From assembly GCA_034231615.1 (NCBI GenBank), contig CM067298.1:61844387-61908386 (forward strand): DNA of 64,000 bases, read 5' to 3'. The position numbers and the translations under genes are program-made. The notes below the pieces were generated by a model. That model did not search any database. It was not told the origin of the DNA and saw only the letters and a program-made list of their open reading frames with translations. The DNA is from Meghimatium bilineatum. Taxonomy: Eukaryota > Mollusca > Gastropoda > Stylommatophora > Philomycidae. This document shows positions 8,798 to 35,168 of this stretch, one piece after another; the first letter of the stretch is position 1, and every line of letters starts with the position of its first letter.

Positions 8798-9118
8798 TTA
8801 TATAAAATGTACCCAGAGTGAAACGTGCTCAAGCATTGCCTCTAACATGCAGTAACTGACAGTTCGCTTGGTGCCTTGGTTTGCAGTTTGTAGATCTATC
8901 AAACCTCCGCTTAATGCTTCATTAATGTAAATTTTCATGGTGTCACATGTTACCATTGGCAGCAGCTCACCTAGTGTGACTATCATGTTGTTGACATGAC
9001 GACGTAGTCTTGTAAGTTGTGAAGCAATAATGCTGGAATAGGTTACAGTATCATTTTCTTGACTTTTCAGAAAGTGAACGTATGTCGACAGTAGTAGCAG
9101 ATTATATAGTCGTGAATT
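8798..9118 (-). CDS. Gene B exon 4 (C-terminal)
   Basis: The acceptor TTCTATCCCACAG is followed by 106 codons and a stop, 321 nt in all, exactly the length of gene A exon 4. By-eye identity is 60/106. Invariant blocks are [11 protein letters not shown] ([11 protein letters not shown] in A), [10 protein letters not shown], and LEAMLE near the C-terminus. Two of the four conserved cysteines are here (exon residues 58 and 90). Confidence 0.88.
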   Translation of the reverse strand, partial: NSRLYNLLLLSTYVHFLKSQENDTVTYSSIIASQLTRLRRHVNNMIVTLGELLPMVTCDTMKIYINEALSGGLIDLQTANQGTKRTVSYCMLEAMLEHVSLWVHFI

Positions 9119-12100
9119 CTGTGGGATAGAATAATGTAGATATTTTATTTTCTACATACATTTTGGGTAAAAATTGGACTATTGAAATTTTTATAAATAT
9201 TTTAAAAATCTTTTAGTGGCGGGCCTATCTGGTGTAGGATTTTATAAAACATATGCTAATGTATATTGAGCTTCTTTGTTTGTTATGTTTGTTCCTAAAC
9301 TCCTGTATGTTAACAGAATGTCGTCCAAAGAACGAAATAAGCGGGGTCGTAGTGTACAGCTTGGTTGCAATATCGCCGCTTTTCGACAAGACTCAGCCTT
9401 CTTCAACTAGCAGCTTCTGGATCACATTTGACCATTGTTGAGATGGTCAAACCAATACTCAAAATCTTCTTAATCGCCTATTCCAACGTGAGTGAAAAGT
9501 AACAGCTTCATCATTTTTATGCTCCATTCGAGCCTGACAGTGCTAGAAAGTGTGAAAGAGTTCTTCATCACCATAAAATCTGGATCTTTTGAAATTGTTT
9601 CTTTAAATAATCAAAAGAAAAATAATGTAAGCAGATAAGGCCAAAGGTAAGATCCTTTAAGTATGATTGCAGAGGAGTGGATGTTGTAAGCAGAATTCAA
9701 CAAGACAAACGTAAGGCTCAAGTAGTGGGAAATCAGGTGTGGGATAGGCCCCCCTGGTGGAACGAAGAGGTTCAAGGGGCATGGAGCGAGAAACGGAAAG
9801 CAGTATCACTATGGCAAAGGACAAGGAAACGTGTTGCTGCTCAACCCATGGAGGTCGCACAATGGAAACGCAAGAAAGATAAATTAGTCCAAACATTCAA
9901 AGATATTGCAAAGTCAGCAAAGGCGTCAAAATGGGACGAATTTTGCAAGGAGATCACACGACAAAAGTCACTAAAATTGTTCTGACGGTTACACAAGTCC
10001 ATGAATGGTCTGACAAGACGCGTGACTATTGCCGATTTCCAGAGCGACGATACCGTCTGGCAGAAGACGGACGAGACAAAAGGTGCGGCGTTGCTGGCAC
10101 ACTACACCGCACAAATTGGTCAGAGAAATGTGGAGGCATATCAAAAAATCAGGAAAACGATCACAGACACGTGTAAGAACTTGAGCATGGAAAACCATAT
10201 GCTAATCACAGTTGAATAAATCAGGAAGCCACTGAAAAGTACAAAAAACAGAGCACCAGGGCCAGATGGCATTAGATACGATGACATTAGTCGAAGAAAG
10301 GATGAAGAGTTGGGAGAGTTGGCGGACATGTTCAATAATAGCCTTCTAAAGGGCACAGAGAAAGAAGACTGGTTGCACAGCTATTTAGTTCCACTACCCA
10401 AACCTGTGAAGGACCACACCAGGATACAAGGCTACAGAATAATAACAATGCAGAATACGGTGGCAAGCTTTTGGAAAAAATTGTGGCCCGGAAGGTATCG
10501 TGTTATCTTGAAAGAAATAAGTGTTTACCAACATTGTTAGGAGGATATCGTCTAGGAAAGAAGACATGGCAGAATGCAGCCATATTTGCGCAGGATGTTT
10601 TTGAGGGGTTCGATTCACGCATGGAGACATGTGGGGTCGCAATAGACCTTGAGGATACGTACAATAGGGTGTCCTTGGATATCTTGATGCACCAGCTGTT
10701 AAATCTTGACGTTAATCCTTTTGTCGTGCGTTGGGTTGGCGCCGCCTTGATGCCCAGGGTTGTAGTTCTTAAGTGTGGTAACCGGATATCTACACCAACG
10801 GTTATTAGCCCTGGCCTGCCACAGGGATCGCATCTATCTCCTGTACTTTTGAATGTATACACAGTACATATCGCTGGCAATCAAATCACAGGTGTTGGCA
10901 GAACGATGTCATATGCCGATGATATCCTTATGTATAGACAGGGCAGAAATCGAGAAGAGTGCGTCGTGGAACTACAGAAGGAGCTGGACAGACTGACAAA
11001 TTGGTGTCGAGATACGGGAGCAGTGGTTAATCCGACTAAGGCATTCGTGACGTGGTTTTCCTTGAACAATCACATGGTAAAGACACCCATGCCACAAGTT
11101 TCGTTGTCCGAGAAAAGTTTAGAAAGAACTAGCACAATGAGATATCTTTGTGTGTTTTTTGACAGAAGCCTGAGTTTCAGGGAAAATATTGACCACATTA
11201 TTATAAGGGCAGGCAAAGGCTTAGCAGCAATGAAGGTTATGGCTGCTGCGCAGTGTGAGCAAAGATTGCTATTTCTTTTGTACCAGGGTTTGGTTGTGGC
11301 TGTGGTGGAATATGCACTGGCAATTCTGACTCTTAGCTAAACTCAGATCGAAAGACTGGATAGAGTCCAGAATGCAGCAATGCGTATCATTCTGGGATGC
11401 ACAAGAGACACATCGACAAGAGCTATGCGATACCTACTTGACTGCCCAACAGCTGAGCATAGATTACAGTATTGCCGTGCACGGGCGTACCTTTAAATAC
11501 ATGCAGATAAGGAACACCCGTTCCATTACCTCACATGATTTAATGATGATATACCCTGGTTACGTACGATTATGGTTGAAATTTTGTGAAATGAAAAGTA
11601 TCCCTTATGGTGATCTACGTTGATTTCAACCTCCGGCTTTTGTCCAATAGGCTATAGCAGAGCTTCAAACCATCAAAAATAGTGGATGGCGCATTTCTGG
11701 TAATCCAGTCACAATGGCCTCCGGAAATTATAAATTAATTGCTTTAAAGCCTTGAAAAATAATAATAAAACTAAAAATTAAATACTGAAATTGTAGTGAC
11801 TTGATTACATAAATAGCTGTTACCATTAATTGTGATTGTCTTGTGCTTCAATGAGTCTCTGAGTATGTATCGAGAATATATGTGCATCCGACATCAGTCA
11901 TCGCGACTGTAACAAATGTACTACATGTTTATCGGTCGCTGGTAAGCTAAATAAATGTACGATTAGATTAGTAATTTCATATTATTCGTCTGTCAGTGAC
12001 GTCACAGAAGTACACAATATTTGAGAAATTCCCAAAGATCACGCATCATACATACACTGAGATGGACACTCAACGGAGAACGGAGCACTTATGGGAGTGC

Positions 12101-15100
12101 CCATATTATGTGATGCTAGTTTCTAATCTAGAATCAAAAATCATTCTTATAAGGTGACTGAAACATTTTACTTGCTGCCTTTCGATAGGAATTATATCTA
12201 CTTTTTCCCCCAAATTTCTTAATTTCTAATTTATATAGTTTAGTAATTATTGCAGTTTTTCTCAGACACTTCATTTCATATGTAATAATTTTCCTTTGCT
12301 GCGATACTGTTAAAGACCACATTTGACATTAGTAGAAGAGTGTTGGTGTAAAATGCGTAGATATTATCTGTCTTTTGATTTCCAGATTGATCTTTGGATG
12401 GAGAAGTAATGGTGAAAGTTGATACGTCACTGTGTTTTATGACACCTTTTTTGGTCTTTTTTTCTGGTCTTATCTGGTCTTTTGTACGTTAATTTTAATT
12501 TTGTACGTTTTACATACTAATTCAATGCAGTAATGTGATTTTTCAGTATTCTGTAATATATCCGGATGCAGGCCGTTGATTTTCCGATGTTGATTTGGTG
12601 AAAGTATGCTTGTAGGCGGCAGTCAGGGCCGTGCCCTGATATGATGAAGATACGCGGCCGCAGCAGGCTACACCAATCAAAATGCATTGTAGGTTGCGGA
12701 ATTTCGAAGAAAAAACATTTAAATGGGGGGGGGGGGCATTGCGAAGACTTGCATCATTCTGAGGAAATCTATTGCACAGTCCTGATGGCATTTTCCCGTT
12801 CTCAGTCACAATATCTGACTTGTTCCTTTCTGTCCAATTTGTTGATGTTGCCTTGCTCAGGTGTATAGCTTCCGTTTAGCTCTCTCCACTGACGTAACAT
12901 AGATTGTTATAGCAGTTATTTAGCTTCCTTGAAACTTTACCGTTCTTACAACTCATATATGTGTACATATATATTTAGATAATAACATTTTATTTTAACT
13001 TTTGTTTCCTTCCAATCTTGTTTTTGTCATGTTTTATCCCGACAATTTTGTTTCCTTATTTTTAACTTTTTTCCAATGAATTTTGTAAACATTACAATAG
13101 TCGGAATCTAACCCACCTGTTGAGAATTCAATTCCTCAAGATTTACTGTTTTAATCTCCACGCTGAGTTTTAAACACAGTGTTGTCCTGGTTTCTGAAGA
13201 TAGTTCAATTACCTAGTCAAGTAGAATAGAAATTAGTCGTACAGATTAGTACAAATAAATATGAGTTTAAAAGAATAAGTGGGTTAAAATGCAACTTTAC
13301 CTTACACAGAAAAACAAAACCCATGTTTCGGCCTGCAAGTCTTTAACAAGATAGGGACAGACAATAACCGAAATATAGCATCAACGTATTATATTGTTTG
13401 TTGCAATCCACAGAAAGAACGAGTAATAAAGCTTTGATCTGTAATGCTCTGTGCTATGGAGAGGTTTCTCCGAAGTTTTATTACATACCTAGAAGATTAT
13501 AACTCTCAAAATGCTGTCTCCCTTTTACTCAATTTAATACTCATAAAACTTGTGTTTCTTTCAATCCATATTTTATGTACTTAAGATACGATACGTTTGT
13601 TGTTCAGCATATCACAATATGGTAGACCCTACTAAATGAAATACTATCAGCCCTTTAATTGACGATTTGTAGGCGTATATTTATGAAAATTAACTCATGA
13701 AACATCTGTGTGATCAGATTCCGAAAGAGGAATCAAGAATATCAATGACTACAATGCATGTCGTAAGAAGAGATCTAGGAAGTTTGGGGTATGGTTGATT
13801 TTCCCTTGACAGAATCACCCAAGGGGTCATGCTGAAGTCGAGTGTGTAGAATTGAATGACGCATACATCGCTGCCAAGTTGCAAACCATGACAAAGAGCA
13901 AAATATTCTCCAGATCACATTCTTCTAACCTGAAGGAGTTTGATAATGAAAGAAGCAGCATAGGAAGAAGAGCAATGCCATTTGTCATACATATAAGTAA
14001 GAAGAAGCTAGACGCGTGTCCTTTACCACACCCAGTGATAACCGCGATATTAGTCCGTCAGAATTGACGATGGCCAGTCATCAAAACTGGGATGATGATG
14101 TTTTATGCGGTGTGTACGCCTATGACTAATGAATCCTATGCGTACCTTGAATTTTCTACCGCACTATGAGGATCTGTGGGACATTGAGAAGCTCTTGCCT
14201 TTCTTTCAGTATGTTTTTGTTGCGCAGCATCGTGTCTAGTGGTCTCTGTAGGTGCAACACACCTTTTGATTCTGCAATCGGATATGTCTTGTGCACGGTT
14301 CTTCCCCGATTATTTGTATATTGATTATGAGTCAGTGATGTCTTAAGAGTGTCTTTAAAATGCTTCTTCTGTTCTTCGACCTTGGATAGGTCAAGTTTGT
14401 ATATAAAATACATACAGTCGAATGTATACCTACTAAAAAAAAACAAAAAACAACACACTGAGCTTTATTACTAAAAGAAATAAAGACTACAGTTCCACAA
14501 AATTGACAAATATGTAAACGTAAAAAGAAGAAAGATAAGGTGAGGTATAATAAGTGTTGGATTAACAAAATATCTTACCCATGACTCTGTTGCGGTTAGA
14601 GTTTGATTTAATTCATCCATTATTTCTAACATTCCATTTTGTAAAAACTTGAGTAATGCGCTTTCGTTTATTTGAATATCATCTGATGATAGACTGGATG
14701 TGTTGTTGTTATGGCATGACTGTGTTGCTATGGAAACAATGTCCTGGAGTTCAGGGTGGACTGATGGCATTGAAGACACACTTACTGTTGAAAATAATTG
14801 TTTAAAACTATTAGTGATCTAATTATTTGTAGAATTATTAAAATTATATGTTTATACAGTGCAGTTTTATATAACAGAAAAGACTTGACAGCAGATGTAA
14901 GAAATACAACATTTCATATATCACAGCAAAATATACAATACACTGATATTGCAAAATATAACTTAGGATTTCTGAAACTTAAACTCACATAAAATGATCA
15001 CGAAATTAGAAAGCGAAAGTATATATATATATTCCGGATACCACTGTCTGAGAGATCTGCTGTCCCTAGCCTTGACATTATTCTGATGAACACACATATT

Positions 15101-18100
15101 CGATGGACTGGTCATCTGGTACGTACGTCAGATCATAGCCTACCAAAGATACTTCTCTATGGTGAGTTACAGAAAGACATTCCATCGAAAGGTGCCCAAA
15201 AAAGCGCTACATAGACTCGTTAAATGCCTCACTGAAATTCCTTGAAATAAACCAGGATGCATGAGAAGAACTTGCACAAAAGAGAACTATACGTGGCTCT
15301 ACAGTAAAATAAAAGGCGAAGAATCTTGTGGAAAGAGGGTAAATGAGACAGCTCAACAGCGGAAAGTAGCTAGAAAGGGCTATGCCAAACACCATCTACA
15401 GTGGTCATCCCACGCACAAACTATCCAAGGACATTAACAGCCAGAATAGGGATTATTAGCATCAATGAACTCATAATCAAGGACATAACTCTTACTGAAT
15501 TTCAAAAGTGGAGGTAGCACATGGTCATCAATAATTGTGATAGAAACATAACAACTAGTATATGTAAATACGGAATATATGCGTATATATGTGTAAATAT
15601 GCATGACGGGGAACTGAACTACAACTGAATATCACCGTCGAAAAGTGGAGGTGGCGTAGTGTTGTAAGGTTTACCTCCACCCCCTTCCTTAAAAATATGA
15701 AAATATATCATAATATTCGCCGAAGTCAGATGTGCTGGACAATTGGTGAGGATAAAACTTGTATATAACTAGGGTTACCATATATCCGGTTTTCCCCGGA
15801 CACGTCCTCTTTTTATGCCCCTGTCCGGGTGTCCGGCCGGCTTTCCAGAAAAATGACTTGTGTCAGGGTTTATCTCCGTCCCCGACTGTCCGTCCGTCCC
15901 CGATCGATCGATACTTTTTACTTAACTTTCTGTGCTATATACTTTAAAATCTATTATGTATAGTGAAATAAACTATACTTTAATCTATTATGTATAGTGA
16001 AATAAACACGCGCGCCAGCTACATTTAGCTCAATATTAACATTAGCCATCAGAACTTCTGGTTCCGTTAGCCATGTTGAATTTTTCGTAAACATAACGCA
16101 TTTCGCATAGCAGACGGTAACGCGAGTTCGTTAGTGATAATTATTAATTAATAAATTTTTGAATTAAAGATTGAACTTACATTTTTTAAATAAGATTTTA
16201 AAAATGCCGAAACTCAGTTAACACAAGTTTATAATTAAATAAGAACAATATTTTATGTAATTTATCTTTAATTTTATTTGTGCAACACTTAATATTGGCC
16301 ATATTTGATGAAAATGTGGCGTATCCTTTTTTCCATCTGACAATTATGGTAACCCTATATATAACACGTCCCTGTTCTCTGCACTACAAACTGCTGAAAA
16401 CCTGTATCGGACCATTGTCCTGCTACAAGAGAGATCCAGCGAGAATCTGAGAACGAACGCACAGAAAACTAATAACATTTAGTACTTTTTCTTCTTCTTC
16501 TGCGTTCATTCTCAAACTCCAACTGGATCTAGCTGGATCATGGTCCTGCTAGATTTCCAGCAGGATGTAGTCCAGAAAATGGAAATGCGTTGTGTCGCCG
16601 TTTTATTTGCGCCAATGGCCCGACACATCCGTCTTCGGCGGAACATTTAGTACTAAGAAGCAAATAACCTTTAGCGGTTAGCCCAAAAATATATCACAAA
16701 CAAACTCCCCGCCGTGCTTTACCACTGTGCCAGACAATTCCAATAAAAACTCTTCAAACTCGTTGACAGCATATCACATTCAGTACTTGGCGATTACTTC
16801 AGCATATTTTGGTTGCAATGTTTTTCTAGACAATATTTAAGTTATAAAACTAAACATGAGAATTATAAAATGTTATACCAGACGTTCACAGACTGGTGCT
16901 CGCGATCACATTGGTGATCACGTGAGGATATGTGTTTGCGCTATATGAGTTACAAAAGTGCTCAATAACACTGTGGATTACGTGTTGGTGGTGCCCGACG
17001 TCTGAAAGGGTTGAGAACTCCAGTTCTGCACTAATCATAACTCAGAAACAAGGATAATGTACAAACAGCAAGAAGAATAAGTTTAGACATTTGAGATGTG
17101 GATATATTGAAATATATAGAAATATATTGAGATGTGGATATACAGAAAGATTGATAATCGACAAATAGATAGAAGACAGAATTGATGCATTTGAGATGTT
17201 GATATATAGAAAAAAGATAATGTAAGTTGGAAAGAAAGAAAACAGACAAGGGTGTTTTGACAACACTGCGTATGAAAAAGTATTGTTAAAGGAAAGAAAT
17301 ATCAAATAAAAACGATATTAAAAGACATGACACATTATTGAAGACCTTACATGATTGTAGAGTCAAGGGGTAGGCAGTGAAAGACATAGATGTACGTGTA
17401 AGGAAAACATGAGGTGGACAGGTTAAAGTCCAGCAGAGTGCACCACCAAGGCAAGAAAAAGAGGATGTTGGATGTCCCTTGCAGCCAACGTTTGATGCGA
17501 AGACTGCACCTAATGATAATTATTTATGTTCAGTAAGCTGCCGTTGCTTTCTGAAAATTGAATATTGAACCTGATATCTTGGTCGTCCAAGAAGTGCACT
17601 CTACCTCTTCGCCACAGAGCCAGTCATAAACCCTCTGATATAACCAAACTGAACTCAAGTCCGCAGTGAAAGGAGTGGACCTCACAATAATAAGTACAGT
17701 TTTCTTTAAACAAAAGTAATATTTGCTTTGTTAATTATAACTTTGTATGTATGCATGGTAAGTAAATACTGAACACAAATACTACTTTGTATGTATGTAT
17801 GGTAAGTAAATATTGAACACAAATATTACATTGTGTGTATGTGTGGTAAGTAAATATTGAACACAAATATTACATTGTATGTATGTATGGTAAGTAAATA
17901 TTGAACACAAATATTACATTGTGTGTATGTATGGTAAGCAAATATTGAACACAAATATTACATTGTGTGTATGTATGGTAAGCAAATATTGAACACAAAT
18001 ATTACAATGGTTAAATTGAAGCTTTACGTTGAACAATACACATGATTGACACGTAAATACAGTCTCGCGTACACTCTATTTTTGACTATGTACGTATGCT

Positions 18101-18228
18101 ACTATTAAGCACAAAATAAACGAACTAATATAATTATCAACATGCAAACAACTAAGCCAACTATTGATGAACAACAAATTACCAATAATTATAACAGCAA
18201 TTGATGAGATGAGACTGAATCCTTTCAT
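8798..18228 (-). CDS. Gene B: secreted helical, cytokine-like protein, four coding exons, 222 aa
   Basis: Joining 18228-18183, 14784-14579, 13212-13117 and 9118-8798 on the minus strand gives an uninterrupted 222-residue frame with canonical GT-AG introns in phases 1, 0, 0. Residues 1 to about 20 form a signal peptide (MKGFSLISSIAVIII then V-S-V-S-S). Cysteines fall at 39, 97, 174 and 206. N-glycosylation sequons include N42 and the conserved N-Q-T at 75. Probable amphipathic helices lie near residues 58-84, 117-137, 143-170 and 198-217. Every exon has a counterpart of matching size, phase and sequence in the paralogue at 26.9-35.2 kb. Introns hold LINEs, a MITE and minisatellites. No known family was recognised; secretion, cysteine pattern and exon phases suggest a helical cytokine or hormone, which is inference. 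Expression is not shown by the sequence. Confidence 0.85.
9300..9400 (+). repeat. Dispersed repeat R, copy
   Basis: AGAATGTCGTCCAAAGAACG then GTAGTGTACAGCTTGG match 54870-54960. It lies in intron 3 of gene B. Confidence 0.5.
9650..11640 (+). mobile_element. I/Jockey-like LINE, RT region
   Basis: Broken frames run WWNEEVQGAWSEKRKAVSLW, N-R-A-P-G-P-D-G-I-R-Y-D-D, DWLHSYLVPLPKP. A 289-codon stretch (10471-11340) then carries SPGLPQGSHLSPVLLNVYTV, S-Y-A-D-D-I-L-M-Y (catalytic YADD) and a thumb domain. Stops at about 9982 and 11338 and a shift near 10470-10540 disable it. It is the sister copy of 43660-46795 and is inserted in intron 3 of gene B. Confidence 0.92.
11650..12010. other. Unassigned, intron 3 of gene B
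   Basis: No gene or repeat family recognised. Confidence 0.4.
12015..12125 (+). mobile_element. Tail of I-like LINE
   Basis: It encodes M-D-T-Q-R-R-T-E-H-L-W-E-C-P-Y-Y, matching the zinc-ribbon-like end at 6170-6240. Confidence 0.55.
12134..12345 (-). mobile_element. LINE thumb-domain fragment
   Basis: Minus frame W-S-L-T-V-S-Q-Q-R-K-I-I-T-Y-E-M-K-C-L-R-K is typical of RTE-like LINE C-terminal domains; no more is preserved. Confidence 0.55.
13117..13212 (-). CDS. Gene B exon 3
   Basis: A 96-nt, 32-codon exon in frame 0, too short for a usual ORF cutoff. The acceptor TTCTACTTGACTAG precedes GTAATTGAAC, and the donor is GTGGGT. Translation starts VIELSSETRTTLCLK and ends E-E-L-N-S-Q-Q. It aligns without gaps to gene A exon 3 ([15 protein letters not shown]...), with the single Cys at the same position (residue 13 of the exon). 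Confidence 0.82.
14579..14784 (-). CDS. Gene B exon 2
   Basis: The acceptor is TTTTCAACAG at the high end and the donor GTAAGA at the low end. The exon is 206 nt: two bases complete a split Val codon, then 68 codons end in Trp. It matches gene A exon 2, with shared motifs I-A-T-Q-S-C (M-A-T-Q-T-C in A) and MDELNQTL, and Ser-Trp at the exon end. The conserved sequon N42 lies just after Cys39. Confidence 0.85.
15020..15560 (+). mobile_element. LINE family D 3' end
   Basis: CGATGGACTGGTCATCTGGT, then GCGCTACATAGACTCG and a degraded C2H2-like tail (CATTAACAGCCAGAATAGGG) align with the good copy at 27700-28140. It lies in intron 1 of gene B. Confidence 0.75.
15770..16357. mobile_element. 588-bp hAT-type MITE
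   Basis: Terminal inverted repeats TAGGGTTACCATA and TATGGTAACCCTA are flanked by perfect 8-bp duplications TATATAAC (15762-15769 and 16358-16365). The interior is rich in CCGG near the left end and has no coding capacity. It lies in intron 1 of gene B. Confidence 0.85.
16395..16640. repeat. Dispersed repeat R, inverted pair
   Basis: TCCTGCTACAAGAGAGATCC (16420-16440) faces the reverse-complement motif GCGTTCATTCTCAAACTCC (16502-16520), followed by CCAGCAGGATGTAGTCCAG and GCCGTTTTATTTGCGCCAAT. Two copies in head-to-head orientation could fold into a hairpin. Confidence 0.6.
17040..17525 (+). mobile_element. LINE family B 3' part, degraded
   Basis: R-H-D-T-L-L-K-T-L-H-D-C and C-P-L-Q-P-T-F-D-A-K-T-A match 42540-42735. 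Several short tandem duplications of TTGAGATGTGGATATA disrupt it. Confidence 0.7.
17555..17705 (-). repeat. tRNA-derived SINE
   Basis: Reverse complement reads TGGCGAAGAGGTAGAGTGC (A-box-like) and GGTTCAATATTC (B-box-like). The other end, CTCTGATATAACCAAACTGA, recurs at 63160-63190. It is a pol III promoter-bearing SINE, not a functional tRNA. Confidence 0.6.
17740..18006. repeat. 44-bp minisatellite, about six units
   Basis: Units of ATTGTGTGTATGTATGGTAA ... ATTGAACACAAATATTAC repeat with few changes. It lies in intron 1 of gene B, 180 bp from exon 1. Confidence 0.9.
18183..18228 (-). CDS. Gene B exon 1 (signal peptide)
   Basis: The ATG at 18228-18226 opens 15 codons plus one base, then a GTAATT donor. 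The hydrophobic stretch FSLISSIAVIII is a signal-peptide core. The paralogous exon at 35168-35123 has the same 46-nt length and the same phase-1 end (ATT G). Both ATGs are preceded by similar 5' UTR bases (GATCACACA versus GACCATAAA). Confidence 0.82.
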
Positions 18229-18349
18229 TGTGTGATCGCTGTATTTATCTATACTCCAACGCGAAAAATTGTTGACCACAAAACGTCTTAAATAAATGAT
18301 GTTTTAATTTAAAATATTCTTTATTGTAAGTTTTGTGCACCCATCTTTA

Positions 18350-18357
18350 CTTATATA
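18350..18357 (-). promoter_or_regulatory. TATA box candidate of gene B
   Basis: TATATAAG on the minus strand, 122 bp upstream of the gene B ATG. The paralogue has a TATA box at a similar distance (133 bp). A GAAAGTTTC motif on the plus strand (about 18416-18424) could be an interferon-regulatory-factor-like half-site, but this is weak. Confidence 0.45.
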
Positions 18358-18759
18358 GCTAATTGTGTGCGGTTTTGGTGAGTATTTTGGGTGTTTTTGG
18401 AGTTTTTCACGCAATGAAAGTTTCATTATCATTATCATCCACGGAAAAAGTGCAGGGCTGCCATATTCAAATTCTCATAATAGGTCAAACTATATTAGAA
18501 AAGAGCTAGAAAAAGTCAAAGATGAACAATATTTTTTTCCCCAAATAGCATGCTTATAGCAAATTTCAGCTTTTACTTGATTACTTTTGTATATAAGACA
18601 TATTGTTACGTTTACTTTATTTTCTTTATATTAGAGAAAGTTTTCATAGTGTATTTTGTCTTCTGTGGATTTTCCAAGTTAAATGTCATTAATTGTAATA
18701 GTGCAATGAAACACTTCAAAGCATGTGCGAGTAGGAGTTATAAGGTGTTATATGATATC

Positions 18760-19235
18760 AACTGACATTATTCTGATCTGATAGTCACATATTCGTTGGG
18801 CAGCTCATCTGGTACGTAAGTCATTCATAGCCTATCTATACTCTATGGTTAATTACAGAAGGGCATACGAGCTCAAGATGGACAAAAGAAGAACTATAAT
18901 GCGTTAGATACATCACTGAAAGCCTTTGACATAAAGCATGCTACATGGGAAGAAGTCTCACGAAAAAGAGCTACATGAAGCTTTACATTTTTTGTTTCAT
19001 GGCGCATCATCTTGGGAAAAAAATGAGAAATGCAACAGCTCAAGAGCGAAGACCTACTAGAAAGACCTGCACCGATCATATACCATCTTAATTAATCACA
19101 CTATATTCGACTTGTCCAATGACCTTTGCAGCAATAATATGACTTATTAGCTATCTACAAACTCATTGTTAAGGACATAAGTAAATTTCATAAAGTGGAT
19201 GTAACAAAGGGCCATCATCACTTGAGATAGAGAAA
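18760..19235 (+). mobile_element. LINE family D 3' end
   Basis: ATTCGTTGGGCAGCTCATCT and the following degraded frame match 27715-28140. The first base lies just upstream of gene B. Confidence 0.7.
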
Positions 19236-19405
19236 CAACATCATCACTTGCGATAGACAAACAACATCATCACTTGCGATAGACAAAACAACATCATTAC
19301 TTTCAATAGGCAAACAACATCATCACTTGCGATAGACAAAACAACATTATCACTTGCGATAGACAAAACAACATCATTACTTGCGATAGAAAAAGAACAT
19401 CATAT
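19205..19405. repeat. 26-27 bp minisatellite from a LINE 3' tail
   Basis: About seven units of ACATCATCACTTGCGATAGA-CAAACA. A single copy of the same text (CATCATCACTTGTGATGG) ends the family D LINE at 28148-28165, so the array grew from that LINE's terminal sequence. Confidence 0.85.
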
Positions 19406-23780: not shown

Positions 23781-23999
23781 AATAATATGTCACCTGATGA
23801 TGAGAGTTGGAGTTTTCTGGGTATAAAAGAAAGTTCTTGAAAGAATTACACATCTGCACCCCCTCCAAATTCACATTGGAAGATTTTGCATCAGCTATCG
23901 TAATTTCTGATGATCCAAACAAACTATATTTTTTTTTTTACAATTTAAGAAACTATACAATTTAATTTTCACGATTTAGGAACTGTTTGATCATGCGTT

Positions 24000-24580: not shown

Positions 24581-24714
24581 GAAACATTTGTATCCTCTTT
24601 TGTACTTGATTTTTAGTACTAAGTGCTCCATTTCTATTTCTCTAATATAAAGAAGGGGAGGTGGTAGATAATTTAAACCCACTACTCTTATCTACTTGCT
24701 TACATGTGTATGAA

Positions 24715-24985
24715 AGGGGCCACGTAACGCAGTGGTTAGCGCACTGGCTTCACATATGAGTGGTACTGAGGATGTTCAATCCCTAATTGAGGCGGAAATG
24801 TTTTTCAGATCGTAACGGCTCCCGGGCCCACCCAGCCTTAATTGTGTACCAGATTAGTTTGGGAAGTAGACTGCGAAGGAGAGAGAATGGTTACCGCCCT
24901 CATATAACAGAGCCATTGAAATCTGAGATCTCTAATATCTCATATCCCTACGGCGTTAATAAATGATATGGGTTAACTTTACTTT
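24715..24985 (+). repeat. tRNA-derived SINE
   Basis: GCAGTGGTTAGCGCACTGG is a clear A-box region and GATGTTCAATCCC a B-box. The roughly 200-bp non-tRNA body ends in TAATAAATGATATGGG. No anticodon arm that would make a working tRNA is evident. Confidence 0.75.
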
Positions 24986-25339
24986 TTGCATGTGTTTCAT
25001 GGTATTGATTATATGGATGTTACACATTCACACATATTTGTGATCACAAATAGCAGACACACATACAGTTGTGTGTCGATAAATAAAATATTGGAAACAG
25101 TTCTAATGTGTTTCTCTCATTTTTATTTACATTAATCAGACACAGGAGACAATAAGTAATTAAATAGTTTTATATCACAACCAACTAAGCATATACAAGA
25201 TGATTGGGTAAAAGAACATGAGCCGAAGGTTTATTAGCTCACTTCGAACAGAACATATACAAGATGACGGCACAGTTTCTCTGGCATTGTTCATTGAGAG
25301 AGAAACTTTCCCAACATGCAGTAATACACGTATATCAAA

Positions 25340-25445
25340 TTATGAGTTGTCCGACTCAGTGGCGACGATGCATAGGGCACGTATGTCACTGTGAAGGTAT
25401 CTGTTTCAAATTCCGACGCAGGCAAATCTGCATCAGGACCGTTTA
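25340..25445 (+). repeat. Possible tRNA-like SINE head
   Basis: CTCAGTGGCGACGATGCATA and GTTTCAAATTCCGACGC resemble A and B boxes at plausible spacing. No second copy was found in the window. Confidence 0.3.
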
Positions 25446-25934
25446 GAAAGCAATGGCAAATACTGAACGCACATATATTTCCTTTAAAAGATCAATATTT
25501 CCAACACATTCTTAATTGATGACTAGATCCTGAATAGGATATGTTACCTTGTTTAAAACTAATAATTCAAATATAACTAGAGTCCTGGTTTAACAAATTG
25601 TCCCGGATTGAAAGGACTGTTCCTGGCTTCTCGGCCCATTTGAGCTCTGTCCCATTTGTTATCACAATCTCCTTAATGTTAATTGTTTAAGTGCATTTGT
25701 TTTTGTTAGAATCAATGCACATAATAATTGCATGTACAGCCGCTACTGCCAACTAAGAGGGATTTGAGCACATTCAATATATTTATATTGATAGATCAGT
25801 GGTAAGTGAGCATTTGTGTGATTGTCACGATTTTGCAGTCAAGAAGCTTTAGATGACTTGTTATTGTTTTATTTTTACTAAATAATTATTCCATTTTACG
25901 TGACCCGAAAAGCATTTAGATCTGATATTGATCA

Positions 25935-26035
25935 TCATAAAGTGCCGTCTTCGCATTGGCGGTTGACTGAAACATTACTCCAGCAGCCTCCTTCTCTTGT
26001 CTGGATGGTGCACTATTCAAAGCTGAACACTGTAA
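25935..26035 (-). mobile_element. LINE family B 3' end
   Basis: AAGTGCCGTCTTCGCATTGG and text to TGGATGGTGCACTATTCAAA correspond to the reverse complement of 42650-42740. Confidence 0.6.
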
Positions 26036-26358
26036 AGCTCATGATGTATTGAAGCGTTTATTTAAAATCATATAGATCTTCATTTATATATAGTAAAATA
26101 GATATTAGTTTACAATAGCCAGACAACACTCGATCGAAAAATGTAACTTTTGATGTAAAGTAGCTACAATTGTTTGTCCAGCTTTGTCTCGCTCTCCACC
26201 ACAAATGATGATACTATTGGTCCAGATTACAACTCAGAAAATTATGATCAGCTTAATTGTAATGTTCAAATTATATGTAACATAAAGAATAAATAAATAT
26301 TACATATATACGTGAATGGATTTAAATACAAATGTAGTAACTATAAATGAACAGTTAT

Positions 26359-26440
26359 ATTATACGCTCAACATGAGCTACGTCATTTTAATATATTGTT
26401 TAGTTTTCCATACAGGAAAGATATTTCAAGTATAACTTTT
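26359..26440. other. Downstream block shared by genes A and B, copy A
   Basis: Counterpart of 7829-7902, with GAGCTACGTCATTTTAATA then TACAGGAAAGATATTTCAAG. It lies just before a hAT MITE (26464-26710), which separates it from the final exon of gene A. Confidence 0.6.
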
Positions 26441-26463
26441 TACAACCGCTGATATATGCAGAG

Positions 26464-26710
26464 CAGTGTTTCCCAACGTGGACCAACGCGATACGGAGGT
26501 GGGAGGATTTGATTGTTCATGGGGCAATGTGATTGTTCAGGGGGGGGGGGGATGTAATTGTTCAGAGGGCAAGTCAGGGGGGGGGGATAATACTTTTTTA
26601 ATATAAAATATGTATATGTTAAATGGGAAGGGGACAACAGAATTTTAGAAAGACTTAGGCGGGGGCATTGTAAAAAAAAGTTTGGGAAACACTAGTGTAG
26701 GGGAAACACT
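26464..26710. mobile_element. hAT MITE
   Basis: Ends CAGTGTTTCCCAACG and GGGGAAACACTG are inverted. Flanks ATGCAGAG and GTGTAGAG are a degraded 8-bp duplication (6/8). The interior repeats GATTTGATTGTTCATGGGG, as in the MITE at 706-849. Poly-G runs occur inside. It lies just downstream of gene A. Confidence 0.65.
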
Positions 26711-26894
26711 GGTGTAGAGGATCCACATCTACTATCGGTTGTAAACAAATACATGGCTTATTAAAGTAAGTGTTTGATTAACAATTCAAATACTATTTAC
26801 ACGTTTAAGAAATATTGTATGTACATCAAATTTAAGTAATTTATATGAATGTTATAAATTACTATATAAGAATTCACGCCTTCTTTGACTTGCT

Positions 26895-27215
26895 TCAAAT
26901 TAGATTTACATCGCTTGAAATTTCCTCAAGCATTGCTTCTAAGACACAGTAACAAGCCAATCTTTTGGCAGCTGGTACGAAATTTTGTAGATTTATCAAA
27001 TTTCCAGTGACAGCTTCGTTCGCGTAGATTTTCATATCGTTGCATGTCACCATGGGCAACAATTCTCCTAGACTGAAAACATTTTGGCTCATATGATGAC
27101 GAAGATTCTTTAGATGATCAGTAATACGGCTGGAGTAGGAGGTCTCATCATTTTCTTGGCTCTTCAAGAAGTGAATGTAAGACGACATGAGCAGAAGTTT
27201 CTGCAGTAGTGAGTT
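26895..27215 (-). CDS. Gene A exon 4 (C-terminal)
   Basis: The strong acceptor TTGTTGTCTCTCACAG precedes 106 codons and a stop. The exon holds three probable helices and the blocks [21 protein letters not shown] and [10 protein letters not shown] Cys-Tyr-Cys pair replaces the Ser-Tyr-Cys of gene B. The open frame upstream of the acceptor is intron read-through and is not part of the protein. Confidence 0.88.
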   Translation of the reverse strand, partial: NSLLQKLLLMSSYIHFLKSQENDETSYSSRITDHLKNLRHHMSQNVFSLGELLPMVTCNDMKIYANEAVTGNLINLQNFVPAAKRLACYCVLEAMLEEISSDVNLI

Positions 27216-30200
27216 CTGTGAGAGACAACAAAAGTGTATTATAATTACAAAACACACATTTAGGAAGAAATCTCAAAACGTGTTATATAATGTTTAGAGC
27301 TTAAGTCATGTTACAACCAGCACTTGGCAAAAGCTACCTCGAGCCCTGCATAAAGGTAAATGGTGTAGCACTGAAAGTTGTGAATAGATTCACATATCTA
27401 GGCAGTACGTTATCACAAAATGCCAACGTTTATGATGAAGTGTAAACAAGGATCGCCAAAGCAAGCAGTACTTTCGGCAGATTGTACGCAAATGTTTGGC
27501 GTAGAAATGGCATTAACCTACAGACTAAGCTGAAAGTTTACAGAGCAGTGGTACTTCCAGTGCTGCTATACGCTAGTGAAACATAAACTCAATCACGTTT
27601 ATACAAATTGTCTCAGAAAAGTTATGAACATCAGATGGTAAGACAAGATTCCAGATACCACTGTCCTTGATAGAGCTGGTATCCCAAGCATTGACACGAT
27701 CCTGATGCAGAGACAGATTCGTTGGGCAGGTCATTTGGTGCGCATGCCAGACCATCGTCTGCCAAAGATACTTCTCTATGGTGAGCTAGAGAAGGATATA
27801 CGATCTCAAGGTGGCCAAAGGAAGCGCTACAAGGACTCGTTAAAGGACTCACTGAAAGCCTTTGAAATAGACCACGATACATGGGAAGAACTTGCACAAA
27901 ATAGATCTACATGGCGTTCTAAAATGAAAAAGTGCGCATCATCTTGTGAAAAGAAGAGAAATGCAGCAGCTCAACAGCGGAAAGCAGCTAGAAAGTCACG
28001 GATAGCCCAAGATCCGTCTACAGTCGTTATTCCATGTCCAAACTGTCCAAGGACATTTACAGCTCGAATAGGGCTCATTAGCCATCTACGAACTCATAAT
28101 CAAGGACATAACTAAAATTGAATTTTCAAAAGTGGATGTAACAAATGGTCATCATCACTTGTGATGGACGAACAACACAACACAGAACACAAACACAGAG
28201 CTTAAGAACATGTCCACCAAAAATAAAATAGATAGGCCTATATATGCAAGGGTACAACAAGCACTATTTTTATTAATAAAAAGATACAAACGTGCATGTT
28301 AAGCTGACGCGATTTACGAACATCTAGAAATACTAACTACGAGCGCTATAGTATGGAGAGGTTGTCAACAATCGTTTCTGGAATTTATGAAAATTATTTT
28401 ATTTTCCAGCGTACCATTCTGTTCGACTACACCATATATTAGATAAGTAGTATTTTTTCTTTAATATTATTTAGATTTGTCTTCTTTTTTCATACTTTCC
28501 CTGATGTTTTTCCTTTAACTCTCTCTTCTATTCATGCCGTATTTATCTTTTTTTCTTTCTCTTATCTTATCTCTTTTATCACAGTTTTGTGCTCCTCTCT
28601 TACATCATGATTCTCTGTTTGTAATATTCATTTATGTTTTAATTTTCTTTGGGTCTCGATACAGACTTTTTTAGTTGAAACGTCGTTTTTTTCTATTGAA
28701 GTCGTTGGTGTGTATTGTTGCAACACTATTCCACGTATCTCTGATACGTATCTCTGGCACGTATCACGTATCCCTCCTCCCTCTCATTACTCTGTGTTGC
28801 ATCAGCCTTCACCTCTTTAGTGGTTAGGGTTTTCCTTGAGGATTTATCCTTTTATGATGAGATATAAGCCGAGAGATATCATTGTGTAAGAATAAGATCG
28901 TTGCATAAAGGTTATCAACGGAAAGAATCCTGTGGATAAATCTAATACAAACAGACGTAAGAACTGGCTGATTCTTTTATCTTTTATCTTTTACTCATAA
29001 GATTCGTTTCTCACATATAAATGTTAGTATTGAATTTACCTGTGCATCATCAAGTTCTACGCGATTCACGTTGTTGATCTTAATCCTCCATGTTAAACAC
29101 ATCCTGTTCTTATCGGCGGTTGATAGCACATTTACCTGTGAACGATTCAAACAAAACATGAAATACATTATTGTACTACATTGAAAGAAATATAATTATG
29201 AAGTTGATGAATCCCTTTAACAGGTAGCTCTCGGCAGTTCAAAGATTTTCTGCAAGAAGCCGTTCTGCTCAGTTGAGTAATCAAGATGACACCCGAACTC
29301 CCATAATATTTGCTGTCTCAAAGTATGGAGTTTATGGATGCATGTTTAGTTCCCGAATGGAGGCATTCCATTGCGGCAGAGTATGTCTCAGAGTCATTAC
29401 GTCTTGCTAGGATCGCAGAAATACACCAGGGCCAATATCTTCATCATTATGCTATCAGATTTGTTGACGTATCTGAATTGACGACATACCTCTGTATTTC
29501 CAGCCACATAGGAGTCTATCACAAAAGGAATACGGGGCAATATCCTCTGTTCTGAATCTCTTCATCATCCATGAGGATTTCCTTATAGAAAACAAAAGTA
29601 AGAAATTGAGACAAGACATGAGTGACAATGATGTTTTTAACAGGTAACACATTGTCAGCTTATCCCTCTACTTTCATTAGTCTCTTTCTACAACATACCT
29701 GGATATAAACCAGTTGCCATATTATCTACACCTTGAACAGTCCGGAGTCCTGAATTCTGAATTAATTAGGCCTTAATTTATTCCTTTTATTAATTATTTC
29801 CATGGTTTCCGTTGGTCAATATTTATATACTTGGAATCGACCACTAAAAATAGCCAACGCTGCTCTTCTTCTTCTTCTTCTTCTTTCTGTCCTCATGTAC
29901 CTTTCGGTGTTGAGGGGAGAGTGAGTGTACGGTCTTTTGCCCTTCTATTTGCCTCCTCTGCTGTTATATTTCCGAGTGTCTCTAATACACTATCTATCCA
30001 CCTTTTACGAGGGCGTCCAATAGGTCTCCTGTTTTCGTATCGTTTGTTAAGTGTCTTTTGGATAATACTTAGGCTGCTCAAAGTATATAAATAGTAACCA
30101 ATGGAAAGCGTGAGAACAATCAAAAGCGTACCGAATGAAGACCTGTTTACTTTTTGCGTTTACGTATTACGTCTTAAGTACTATCTATGGTCAAGGCACA

Positions 30201-33200
30201 GGTCAAGGCACATGTCATGCTGAAGGGAGTTTTTCTTCGAGATTTCCCGTCGTTTTGAACCAATTGTCGCTCGTATAGCTAGAAAACAAAGTACCACTCC
30301 AAGAAAATTTTGAGAATTCTCATGCAGCGTCATTTATCTTGGGATTATACCACTTTCCGTGCTTTTAATTGGCTGACGACATGAAGTATATGCAAAGGGT
30401 CAAATTATCTGTAGTATTATCCAAGATGAGTGACAAAGTACGAGATTAGCATGCAGGACTTTCTTGGAGAAGACTTGGTAAAAAAATGTACTTGGAATCT
30501 CGACTATTTGGCGACAATTACACTTTCTATGACGTTCGTGCGTTGTCATATTATGTATCTAGATGGCTATGAAAACACATAAGTGGCATTGCTTCTCTAC
30601 AACAGATTGGTAAACACAATTGCAACAGTACAACAATAACATAAGCTTACAATATGTGAAAACAGAAGTCACAAAATAATTTTGTTTTCTATTCACAATA
30701 AAGACTGAACTATACTAAATACTTTAATGTGCAGTTCACAGAATAGATATGATCTACGTTTCTACCTAAAGATCGTTGTATAGCTTTGTTGCAACGCAAT
30801 CTATTGTTGGATAATGTAGCAGTATGCCCTACTATCAGACATTTTATAATGTTTTTATTTTATAAAATACTATCACAAATGGTTTCTAATTCAATGTCAG
30901 TCACAGTTCCTGCTGTAACTATATCACAAATGATTTTACAATAAATAATGCAACTCAGATGCCTGAGAGATAAATACTTGTCTTCCAATCGTCGCATGAT
31001 CCCACAAAAGGAAGCAAAGAGAAATATTCGAAGGAATAAATAACTTACCCATGACTTTATCAAGGCTAGAGTCTGGTTTAATTCATCCATTGTTTCTAGT
31101 ATCTCGATGTGTAAAATAGCGCGTGTTATGTTCTCGTGATTTTGTGGAATATATTCTGCTGGTATTTGAATTGAGTTGTTGTACTGACATGTCTGTGTAG
31201 CCATATCAAGGATGTCCAGTGCATCAATATCGACTATTGGCATTGATGTCACATTTACTGTAAAACAAGAATTGTTGAAGAATACGTTAGTTACATTAGT
31301 TACATAATTATTCTTAGAATAATTGTTTCATTTCTAAAAAAAAACCACTGGATATAATAAACACTGTAATCGCCCCAGAAACTCTATATTCGTGGTCAGT
31401 CAATTTATATGTCAATGAGAGTGTCGGTTTTTGAAGAAATCTACATCAGCTTCAACAATTAAATTATATTGCACAACAAATATTGTAGGATAACAAACCG
31501 AATGTGGGATAGAAAACCTAATGTAGGATAGCAAACCTAATGTAGGATAACAAATTTAATGTGGGATAGCAAATCTAATGTAGGATATCAAATATAATGT
31601 AGGATAACAATCAAATGTTTGGTAGTTTTAATAATCGACAAAACCTGGAAGTTAACAAATATGCAGCTGGTGTACACGCCGAAGTGTAGACGCTATTATC
31701 TTTATGTAATGTCAATTCTCCAGACATTTCCATTTTCAATACCCATTTTTTGCTGGTCAAGTCTCAATGACTTTGTTCGAGTCCATATATAACTCCTGTA
31801 TCTGAGGACTCACAAACACCAAGCTTATTTGAATTGTTTGATTATCAATACTCGCCGTTGTTTGTGAAGAAGGAACACCATCATGATCGTCATTACTTCA
31901 AATCTCATACCTCCACAAGGTTTAAACTCGTATCCTAAATACCTATACCATTTTCTTAATCAACAGTACATACTTCCCCCACCCTCCCCCTCAATCGGCT
32001 ATCAGAATTACTTATAATTTATATTGTCTATCTCCAGGTGGATAATGTTAAGAATATCCACTCTTGTCGCTAAGTGAAGGGTAATGACTAGAACTTTAGT
32101 TGTCTAAGGCCAGATGTGTTGCCTTGGTTGTGTAGAATCCATATTTGTTCAGAGCTCTTTTGATATATACATCCTTCTTTTCCTATGTCTTCCTCTGGCT
32201 TTGTATCCTGATCTTCTCAAATTATATGTTCTTGTTGGTAGATGATTATGGTTCATTCTCATAAGATGTCTAAACCATCTTATATGTGGGGGTTTTTTCT
32301 TGATAATTTATAGGTAGTAAATATCTATTCTTAATATCAAAATATAACAATTATTTTTCTACGTATTTAAGTATTTTTAAACACATTGGGACAACTGACA
32401 AAATCAAAACAAAACAAGACAGAGGACGGCAGAAATAAACAATGTTAGATAGTTTTGATCTATCTTCATGTGACATTCTTTACAGTGCGTAGTCTTCTTT
32501 GTGGATGTTCTGAGCTCCTAACGACTCTGAGCGAGTTGACGTGCCGCAACAAGAGTGTTGAAACCATCTGAAAAGTCTCTTATTCATCGCCGTCTTGGAC
32601 GACGCTTACCGATGTTAACAGAAAATATTATTAATTTTTCCATTTTGCTCTGTCTCTTTATATGGCAAAAAACTAAGCTGTCTTGTATAATGTTGTTTAG
32701 GAGCCAACCTTTTCGACGTTCACTGTTCTTAACTCTTCTTGGTTTCTTTTCTGTTCAAGGCATTCTCTAAATATTTCTGTAGCATCTATTTTCGAAATTC
32801 TCTTTGCCACTTATTTATCACAAATCGCCTGAACTGTTTACGTTTCATTAAATATTCAAAATGAATGGCATCTTCAAGTTCTTGATTATCAATTATGACT
32901 CTTTATTTTTTATGATTTTTATTTTCTGTGTATTTAAGTTCCTGTTGTCTTATTTTTTTAATTTTTTTTTATAGTTTAAAATATTTTATATTGTTGTACA
33001 GAGAATTATTTATATGAAACCTTCCTCGTGAATTGTTAAAAGAACTGTGTTATATGTACATCTAATTTCTGGGATCTACGGTTCTCCGATGTTCAGATTA
33101 AACTCTGTATTGGTATAATCATAGTTTACGTCTATCGTTATGTTTGCTGCGTAGATGTTTAAGAAAATGGGGAGAGGGATCATTGTCTTACTCCTTTCTA

Positions 33201-35168
33201 AAGATTAAACCAATCCGATGTTTCCCCATCGACTTTTACCGCTGCGTCTTGTTCGTAAAACAGCACCGCTATAAGGTGTATGTGGTGTTTTGTGGATCCC
33301 GTGCATAAGTGTCCACAACCAAGGATATATTGAAAAAATGTATGAACCCAATGTATAAGAATCTACAGACTGTGATGTTGTACACAGTCATAGGCTTTGG
33401 TGTAATCAATGACACAAGCATGCACATCTATTTGAAAGGATTCATTACTGGATAATATGTCCACACACGTTCCAACTTTTTAATATTAGGCTTGATTGCA
33501 TGCAGCTTCCGTGACACGGAGATTAAAAAAACATACAGCGTCTGCTACCGATTATTCGATCTGCGCGCAACGCATTCAGCGCACTCCTCCCCCAATGATC
33601 TTCCAGGGAACGGGAAAGGGGGACTCTCAGTGCGTTGCGCGAAGATCGATGGATGATGTGTTATATGTGCCTTTAGCGAAAGTACGTTTCATGAAATAAT
33701 GTATATTTTGTTTCGTTAAAAGCATGAACGCATAATTCCGTAAAGTACCTTTTAAAGTACAGTCTTCTATGATATTTCTCACATTGAAAATTTGGTGTCT
33801 TGTACCACTATCAGATGCAGGCTGTACTTAATTCATAGATCTCTGCTTTAATTTCTCTTATAAATGTTCGTTCTGAAACTCCCGCCGAATCTTTCCTATA
33901 GCACGACACCTGGCATACTATATTTCCAACAGGATGTAGTTCAGAGAACAGAAATACGTTGTTCCGTCCCTTTGATGTGCCGCCCCTTTATTTGCGTTAA
34001 TGGCTGGGCACATCAAAATTCATCATTCGTTACTAATACGTTCAGTGCTTTTGTGCATTTCCACTAAACTGTAACCATATCACTAGTATAGCTAGCCAGC
34101 TGTACGAGAGAACTGGTTCTCGTGCTTACACGTCGGTCACCAAACTTAGCAATAGTCACGCATTCTGAATCTATTTACCGTTGACTTGCTTCGCTATCGA
34201 CATAGCCACAGACGCCCACAGCGTGTAGTTTATTCTCCGATCTCCTCATTATAATATGTAATATTTTTTTTTTTCAGAATGGCTTATCACAACGAGTTCT
34301 CTAGTTGGTGTACATTTGTAGGTCGCCATTTTTGAGTAAAGGAGTGTATGCTGATCTTTTTCAGTCTTTAGCCATATATCTGCTTTCCATATCTAGCAAC
34401 ATAGACTATGCTATATAAGTACACTGGCAAATCCTCCTGCCTGGATCATGTTTAGCTTTATAGAACACGTTAATACGTATCAAAATTTGAACTTAAATCT
34501 GCACTTAAGACAAGTGCTTTGAAAAAACAAGCAACAGATCTATATAGATGACTGCTACACAAACAATAACTTAATAGATTAATACTTTCATGGAAATATA
34601 TTTGTGATGACAAACATTATTATATTTACTATTATTATTACAACAATAACAATATTGATAATAAATACTTATTATTACTGCTGTTATTATTATTGATATA
34701 ATACTAATACTACTACTAATTAATATCATTATTGCAATTATTATTATAGAATTTGTTTTAATACTACATTATCATTTGTACTTTCATAAAAAGGGGACAT
34801 AATGTTTTACACACCATCCTAATTTCTAAAAGTATGTGATCGAGAGAATAACGAATCTCTAAAGACAATAAAAATTCGACATTTCCACCAATCTGTCTTT
34901 ATCGAATACAAAAGACAAGATACAACAGCTTGAGAAAAATACATGAACACAAAACTAAACGACTGTAAGAAATATTGTAGGAAAATGTAACTTTAGCACT
35001 TCGTGCATGCAAAATTAAATTAATTGTCAGTTTTAAAATAAACCATAAATGTTACAATTAATTTTAATTAATTGTAGTAAATGAAAAATGACGACAATAT
35101 ATTAAACGAACTACAAATTTACCAATCAACACAACAGATATTGCTGTAATAAGAACGAAGGATTCCAT
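26895..35168 (-). CDS. Gene A: secreted helical, cytokine-like protein, four coding exons, 223 aa
   Basis: Joining 35168-35123, 31257-31049, 29135-29040 and 27215-26895 on the minus strand gives an intact 223-residue frame with intron phases 1, 0, 0. The signal peptide is [15 protein letters not shown] followed by V-N-V-T-S. Conserved cysteines are at 39, 98, 175 and 207, with an extra Cys at 205 absent from gene B. Sequons include N42, N58 and N76. Predicted amphipathic helices are near 56-85, 118-138, 144-170 and 199-218, with Cys98 and Cys175 in or near the long connecting segments. Coding exons are conserved against gene B while introns have diverged and gained repeats, which suggests purifying selection. 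The gene lies upstream of gene B in the same orientation, as a tandem duplicate. Family unknown; a helical cytokine or hormone is the best structural guess. Confidence 0.87.
27300..28190 (+). mobile_element. LINE family D, RT thumb to C2H2-like tail
   Basis: Frames encode [37 protein letters not shown], then an intact 136-codon stretch (27705-28115) with [17 protein letters not shown]. Its C-terminal C2H2-like finger is [11 protein letters not shown] followed by H-L-R-T-H. It lies in intron 3 of gene A, on the opposite strand. Confidence 0.88.
28191..29039. other. Intron 3 of gene A, unassigned part
   Basis: T/C-rich tracts at 28440-28680 and a triplicated motif around CACGTATC (28728-28770). 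No coding or repeat family recognised. Confidence 0.4.
29040..29135 (-). CDS. Gene A exon 3
   Basis: A 96-nt exon in frame 0, with acceptor GAATCGTTCACAG and donor GTAAAT. It encodes [19 protein letters not shown] through V-E-L-D-D-A-Q. It was found because it must link exons 2 and 4 in frame, and is confirmed by the same-length exon in gene B with the Cys at the same place. Confidence 0.84.
29890..30095 (-). mobile_element. LINE family C 3' end
   Basis: Minus frame [19 protein letters not shown], then [19 protein letters not shown], nearly identical to the tail of 57905-59390. A TTC run (29864-29886) marks its 3' terminus. Confidence 0.85.
30290..30475. mobile_element. Inverted-repeat MITE
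   Basis: The left arm CTCCAAGAAAATTTTGAG ... TCATTTATCTTGG is imperfectly complementary to the right arm CCAAGATGAGTGACAAAG ... GACTTTCTTGGAG. A similar structure is at 37585-37790. Confidence 0.5.
31049..31257 (-). CDS. Gene A exon 2
   Basis: The acceptor CTTGTTTTACAG and donor GTAAGT bound a 209-nt exon (two bases plus 69 codons, ending in Trp). Motifs shared with gene B exon 2 are M-A-T-Q-T-C, a sequon after the Cys, and MDELNQTLA. The segment from about residue 56 to 85 looks like one long amphipathic helix. Adjacent intron bases upstream of the acceptor are also alignable with gene B, as expected for a segmental duplicate. Confidence 0.86.
31495..31612. repeat. 20-21 bp minisatellite
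   Basis: Six to seven units of AACCTAATGTAGGATAGCAA with drift, in intron 1 of gene A. Confidence 0.85.
32080..33500 (-). mobile_element. Decayed RTE-like LINE
   Basis: Minus-strand pieces include [17 protein letters not shown] (33440-33380, RT motif), a V-K-V-D-G-E-T-S-D region (33240-33200), I-Y-A-A-N-I-T-I-D (33160-33120) and a C-terminal H-L-M-R-M-N-H-N region (32290-32240). The catalytic region is not preserved. It lies in intron 1 of gene A. Confidence 0.65.
33858..34020 (+). repeat. Dispersed repeat R, copy
   Basis: GTTCGTTCTGAAACTCC, TTTCCAACAGGATGTAGTTC and TTTATTTGCGTTAATGGC match 16500-16630. Confidence 0.6.
34600..34765. repeat. ATT/ACT-rich microsatellite
   Basis: Imperfect ATTATT and ACTACT runs; intron 1 of gene A. 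Confidence 0.75.
35123..35168 (-). CDS. Gene A exon 1 (signal peptide)
   Basis: The ATG at 35168-35166 opens 15 codons plus one base, then a GTAAAT donor. It encodes [15 protein letters not shown], a typical signal-peptide core. Length and phase are identical to gene B exon 1. A TATAAATA motif lies about 133 bp upstream. Confidence 0.83.

Follow-up and report, generated by a model that had tools for sequence, protein, structure and literature searches.

A tandem gene pair in the slug Meghimatium bilineatum belongs to a family of predicted secreted proteins that may act as divergent helical cytokine-like ligands

Introduction

The first intron of the EPO, IL-6 and GH genes lies within the signal peptide and has phase 1, and in the EPO protein a disulfide bond (C7-C161) connects the N-terminal Cys to a Cys of the last helix. 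Exon 3 of human EPO is described as an 87-nt cassette (nt 160-246), and a protein lacking it loses the AB loop (PMC5473850); if the start codon is nt 1, these positions give phase 0 at both ends. EPO and G-CSF are each encoded by five exons (PMC5473850, PMC6389648). Among invertebrate ligands, Drosophila Unpaired (Upd) acts on a gp130-like receptor (Domeless). IL-17 has a cystine-knot beta fold. IL-17 proteins are small secreted immune proteins that have expanded in molluscs (PMC8353272), and the oyster protein CgIFNLP is reported as a helical cytokine with an IFN domain, a class II-like structure and little sequence identity to vertebrate cytokines (PMC9756803).

On the receptor side, a 2026 survey reports that IL6R, JAK and STAT co-occur in Mollusca and finds IL6 in vertebrates only, using cut-offs of BLAST E<=1e-5 and identity >=30% (PMC13203501), so that a family as divergent as the one described below would be missed. 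JAK-STAT components are reported from the transcriptome of the slug Incilaria (= Meghimatium) fruhstorferi (PMC6390351), and for CRLF3, an ancient receptor, the endogenous ligand is reported as unknown (PMC6797617).

An earlier note on 64,000 nucleotides of the Meghimatium bilineatum genome (contig C1:61844387-61908386, hereafter the window) had proposed a tandem pair of secreted proteins, each encoded by four exons. This two-gene observation is extended here to a family with five or more members and to a resemblance to cytokine genes. The top-ranked matches of a search over mainly open-access journal papers contained no account of this gene family.

Results

Genes A and B are minus-strand neighbours of four exons each (Table 1). 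Their coordinates and phases were re-derived and the exon sizes are those that the earlier note had given; GT/AG borders flank all six introns, the phases are 1, 0 and 0, and recomputation of frames and splice sites left both frames intact, which bears out the tandem paralogue pair that the note had claimed. The proteins comprise 222 (A) and 223 (B) residues and are identical at 108 of 222 aligned positions (49%). Exon 2 of A matches that of B at a tblastn E of 2e-12, and the reported identity of the last exon was reproduced (60/106 residues, 56.6%).

The match of the short exons exceeds chance. When 23,717 open 96-nt stretches from the two strands of the window were scored against exon 3 of B, exon 3 of A came first after B itself (score 46, next 27), which bears out the 96-nt third exons of the earlier note; of the 81 stretches bordered by AG/GT, only it and B's own exon score above zero. 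A candidate for exon 3 of A at ~9260-9325, which has no donor, was dropped and the stretch in Table 1 taken instead. Exon 1 of A likewise ranks first against exon 1 of B among 67 open ATG-46nt-GT stretches (score 38, next 22; B aside). The introns are mostly unalignable, again as described before: at E<=1e-3, A and B share a 63-nt patch in intron 1 and an inverted 27-nt patch in intron 2, and no patch of intron 3 could be aligned. No convincing similarity was found in the 1.2 kb upstream of the two genes. A GAS-like and an ISRE-like site lie upstream of B; neither is present upstream of A.

Table 1. Positions of the genes, their exons and other features (window positions unless a contig is named)
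Feature	Position	Strand	Description
Gene A	8798..18228	minus	four exons
A exon 1	18183..18228	minus	46 nt; start codon, hydrophobic signal-peptide-like core; intron 1 phase 1
A exon 2	14579..14784	minus	206 nt; Q-x-C in the predicted mature N-terminus, then a variable spacer and a helix whose end carries N-x-T and W
A exon 3	13117..13212	minus	96 nt; phase 0 at both ends; proposed AB crossover, Cys97
A exon 4	8798..9118	minus	321 nt including stop; proposed helices B, C, D and CD loop
Gene B	26895..35168	minus	four exons
B exon 1	35123..35168	minus	46 nt
B exon 2	31049..31257	minus	209 nt
B exon 3	29040..29135	minus	96 nt; phase 0 at both ends; Cys98
B exon 4	26895..27215	minus	321 nt including stop
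Gene C	C2:75280059-75287878	minus	exons 49/221/114/336 nt
Gene D	C2:75252270-75262620	minus	exons 46/224/114/327 nt
Gene E	C1:62510596-62516038	minus	exons 49/233/111/363 nt
Non-LTR retrotransposon fragment	10471..11340	plus	within A intron 3
Non-LTR retrotransposon fragments	43964..44509, 44669..46272	plus	
Non-LTR retrotransposon fragments	58031..58795, 2361..2801	minus	
Repeat pair	9892..11516, 44727..46356		copies 68% alike
Repeated element	27705..28115	plus	frame ending in C2H2 zinc finger; within B intron 3
Relatives of this element	15031..15555, 18763..19240		copies 68-78% alike; in an A intron or just upstream of A
Repeat, three copies	48433..49225, 57902..58696, 29869..30070		copies 92-95% alike; third within B intron 2
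Tandem array	7506..7844		offset 56 nt; copies ~90% alike
Tandem array	17733..18009		offset 88 nt; copies ~90% alike; within A intron 1
Innexin-like coding stretch	50140..50532	minus	Pfam E 4.9e-16

The window also holds several repeats (Table 1), of which the one with copies 92-95% alike has been recently active, to judge by their likeness. The non-LTR retrotransposon fragments were recognised by matches to reverse transcriptase and endonuclease. The innexin-like stretch has no counterpart within the C2 and E regions examined, and Rfam and tRNA scans gave zero matches.

Selection was estimated after Nei-Gojobori. Over the whole protein, A compared with B gives a dN/dS of 0.45 (bootstrap 0.29-0.65), clearly below 1. 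The value is 0.29 (0.12-0.50) for exon 4, a marginal 0.44 (0.08-0.99) for exon 3 and 0.76 (0.37-1.53), indistinguishable from 1, for exon 2, for which three other estimators gave 0.87-1.0; exon 1, with 16 codons, is too short for such an estimate. The purifying selection claimed earlier therefore holds for the protein as a whole and for exon 4, is marginal in exon 3 and does not extend to exon 2. The protein of A and B is constrained, most of all in exon 4, and exon 2 is almost free to change. When neutral substitution was simulated to the divergence of A and B, both frames stayed open in none of 2000 runs.

Relatives were sought in the whole assembly (1,612,235,226 bases, 32 contigs, contig C1 having 135,710,302 bases), which is described as 1.61 Gb in 25 pseudo-chromosomes and seven unanchored scaffolds, the largest of 135.71 Mb (PMC10770140). 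B, C (minus exon 1), D and E served as queries, and the best candidates were scored and then scanned for exons; since only these candidates were scored and A was not among the queries, five is a lower bound for the size of the family. Three further genes, C, D and E, were obtained, all on the minus strand and with phases 1-0-0; C and D are neighbours in tandem, as are A and B. Of 152 x 190 possible pairings of candidates, the 114-nt third exons of C and D score highest (113), ahead of 38, which overlaps exon 4, and 24. The gene models are least secure at the first exons of C, D and E, which were picked on hydrophobicity and donor quality out of 4, 2 and 5 filtered candidates; similarity played no part in the choice. 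Exon 3 of E may end at 111 or 108 nt. In a tree, A and B stand apart from the other three genes (100/100), among which no firm branching order emerged. The pN/pS ratio of the C-D pair is 0.67 (0.54-0.83). Two of nine genome matches (C2:102992201 and C1:109236524) have internal stops and no supporting exons and were rejected; weaker matches (2 of 12; 5 of 14, E 0.024-8.2; 1 of 7) were left uncounted. Viral and bacterial/archaeal contigs, searched with two short patterns each, yielded 159 and 142 stretches, none of which was confirmed, and all relatives seen lie in the slug genome. Taken together, A, B and their relatives almost certainly constitute a real gene family.

The surroundings of these genes bear on their origin. 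In all three GPCR gene pairs compared between contigs C1 and C2 the DNA is 71-76% identical, and an ancestral genome duplication is described for Stylommatophora (PMC12328838), from which C1 and C2 are probably homoeologous. Gene E lies ~0.28 Mb from one member of a GPCR pair and C ~0.30 Mb from the other, so that E and C/D are probably counterparts that arose in this duplication. The proteins of that pair are 81% identical, C and E at only 75 of 236 residues; as judged from these identities, the slug family diverges much faster than this GPCR neighbour. A further observation concerns contig C7, which at ~3.1-5.2 Mb carries at least 19 rhodopsin-type GPCR matches in ~2 Mb, none with an internal stop, and which perhaps harbours a chemoreceptor array there.

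Residues kept in all five members are, in B numbering, M1, Q37, C39, L64, E70, N76-x-T78 and W85 in the N-terminal part and S119, L121, S128, Y130, F133-L134, E138, L155, L166, L169, P171, K201-R202 and M212 in the part encoded by exon 4. Common to the family are thus a Q-x-C motif, a W, an N-x-T site for N-glycosylation and, in the last predicted helix, a Cys. The N-terminal Cys occurs in five of five members and so does the last-helix Cys, provided that a shift of two residues is allowed: B, C, D and E have it in one column, A and B in a second column two residues later. Cys98 and Cys175 (B numbering) are found in A and B only, and this joint occurrence suggests that they would pair with each other. 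The two cysteines left over, N-terminal and last-helix, would then be a family-wide disulfide pair, as we infer from the alignment. A Cys in helix C is confined to C, D and E; D and E have three Cys each, which leaves one unpaired or bonded between chains.

The signal-peptide-like starts noted before were found again as hydrophobic N-termini in A and B, where the probable cleavage site has an S, and no second hydrophobic stretch in these proteins is strong enough to span a membrane. The predicted mature protein of A and B has a pI of 4.9, a mass of 23 kDa and several N-x-S/T sites, one of which is present in all five members. The family is very probably secreted, as predicted from its sequences. 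AlphaFold2, given single exons with two alignment rows each, placed helices at residues 28-41 and 56-84 of B exon 2 (mean pLDDT 62) and at 119-136, 146-161, 166-172 and 198-222 of B exon 4 (mean pLDDT 46); at this low confidence the helices follow the order of an up-up-down-down four-helix bundle. A beta-strand reading of exon 3 was given up, since the strand-like alternation of A and B is absent from the five-member mean.

Searches of Pfam, NCBIfam and PDB sequences gave no match above chance, in line with the earlier statement that no named family could be recognised. A, B, C and D, the four members scanned against Pfam, matched no cytokine profile above chance; this includes IL17, from which the Cys spacing differs too, as well as interferon and IL-10. 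A match of B to IL5 (E 0.044) was rejected because shuffled controls equalled it: of ten controls (two reversed, eight shuffled) six matched some Pfam family, the best at E 0.043 and 0.05, and none a helical cytokine; one of these matches was to a neurotrophin-3 N-terminus at E 0.89. The IL5 match presumably also pairs the helices out of register relative to IL-5. PDB sequence matches at E 0.21-2.4 (BibA, a trichohyalin-plectin-homology protein, an ARL2-binding protein, a dioxygenase) and a single Foldseek match of the low-confidence exon 4 model (E 4.1) were discarded, and a profile of all five members found nothing in the PDB. The missing cytokine profile lowers the case for class I membership and does not settle it, as known class I members often share little sequence.

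Discussion

We propose that the family works as a divergent four-helix cytokine-like ligand, a reading to which we assign a probability of about 0.45. It is suggested by the predicted order of helix A, AB loop, helices B and C, CD loop and helix D, the introns falling where helix A ends and helix B begins. All five genes, with first exons less well supported in C, D and E, share a phase-1 intron in the signal-like region, later introns of phase 0 and an exon 3 that is a cassette of its own, 96-114 nt long and located between predicted helices. The 1-0-0 pattern is not rare, being expected at ~6% from general phase frequencies, and this counts against the weight of the match. Also counted against the proposal are the lack of profile matches, the low confidence of the exon models, the odd Cys of D and E and the GAS-like and ISRE-like sites that B has and A lacks. 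Tandem duplication and fast divergence are counted in favour, as are the reported occurrence of IL6R, JAK and STAT in molluscs, for which no IL6-type ligand is reported, and the JAK-STAT components of a slug of the same genus. As no curated profile recognises the family and its fold is only predicted, we do not file it as a class I member; the proposal concerns a mode of action.

A and B would be paralogous secreted glycoproteins of ~200 residues once the signal is removed. The N-terminal segment would be tethered through its Cys to the Cys of the last helix; a long helix A would close exon 2, exon 3 would form the AB crossover, and exon 4 would hold helices B and C, the CD crossover and helix D. 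Once secreted into tissue or haemolymph, the ligand may join two cytokine receptor chains (gp130/IL6R/Domeless-like or CRLF3-like) and so activate JAK-STAT, and the paralogues may have specialised through coevolution with their receptors.

Like EPO and the long-chain class I cytokines (IL-6, G-CSF, GH), the slug proteins are small predicted secreted glycoproteins. With EPO they share the phase-0 cassette between predicted helices A and B as well as an N-terminal and a last-helix Cys, and with EPO, IL-6 and GH the phase-1 first intron in a signal-like region. They differ in showing no detectable sequence similarity to long-chain class I members, in having an extra N-terminal segment before helix A and in encoding helices B, C and D in one exon, unlike the five-exon genes of EPO and G-CSF. 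Upd can be likened by role alone, which the slug proteins would share as invertebrate ligands of a gp130-like receptor. Molluscan IL-17 is similar in small size and predicted secretion; the slug proteins, however, are predicted to be mainly helical.

It is unlikely that the family instead serves reproduction or mucus as a fast-evolving, secreted helical protein that activates no receptor, whether in gamete recognition, the albumen gland, courtship or slime. Such proteins are common in pulmonates, and predicted secretion, N-glycosylation sites, tandem copies, fast divergence and a nearly free exon 2 would all suit one, but the four-exon plan with its cassette between helices is kept in all five genes, and the slug proteins are acidic whereas abalone lysins are basic. 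We consider a helical secreted protein without signalling function, either a small-molecule carrier or a structural slime component, distinctly unlikely: the signalling role rests on inference, yet the sequence is free of low complexity, the copies (at least five) are counted as few, the paralogues are divergent and no carrier family was recognised.

If the family bound receptor tyrosine kinases, as CSF-1, SCF and IL-34 do, it would combine the same four-helix bundle with another receptor class. Short-chain bundles have paired AB and CD strands, which the strand-like exon 3 and the Cys98 and Cys175 of A and B would suit, as does the general topology; the strand signal is missing from the family mean, however, and no profile matched, which makes this improbable. 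Interferon-type genes have phase-0 introns, in contrast to the phase-1 first intron of all five slug genes, and the four slug members scanned differ from CgIFNLP in lacking an interferon profile match. A class II-like cytokine is therefore quite improbable, although CgIFNLP is a mollusc precedent (PMC9756803), is likewise a helical cytokine candidate of low identity to vertebrate ones, and B has five predicted helices. That A and B are not genes at all, but pseudogene debris or transposon-derived frames, is barely credible: LINE fragments abound in the window and the gene models are known from DNA alone, but the neutral simulations, the whole-protein dN/dS and one plan in five genes contradict it.

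Beyond the cytokine-like mode of action that we prefer, the stronger claim that the family are class I helical cytokines in the true sense, retained in a protostome with the gene plan known from vertebrate EPO and IL-6, is rather doubtful. If it were correct, the ligand family would predate the protostome-deuterostome split, its members, masked so far by rapid divergence, would be ligands yet to be discovered for the IL6R/gp130-like or CRLF3 receptors of molluscs, and gene architecture, not sequence similarity, could reveal overlooked invertebrate cytokines. Five intact genes with one plan are in any case named candidates for the missing ligands of mollusc cytokine receptors.
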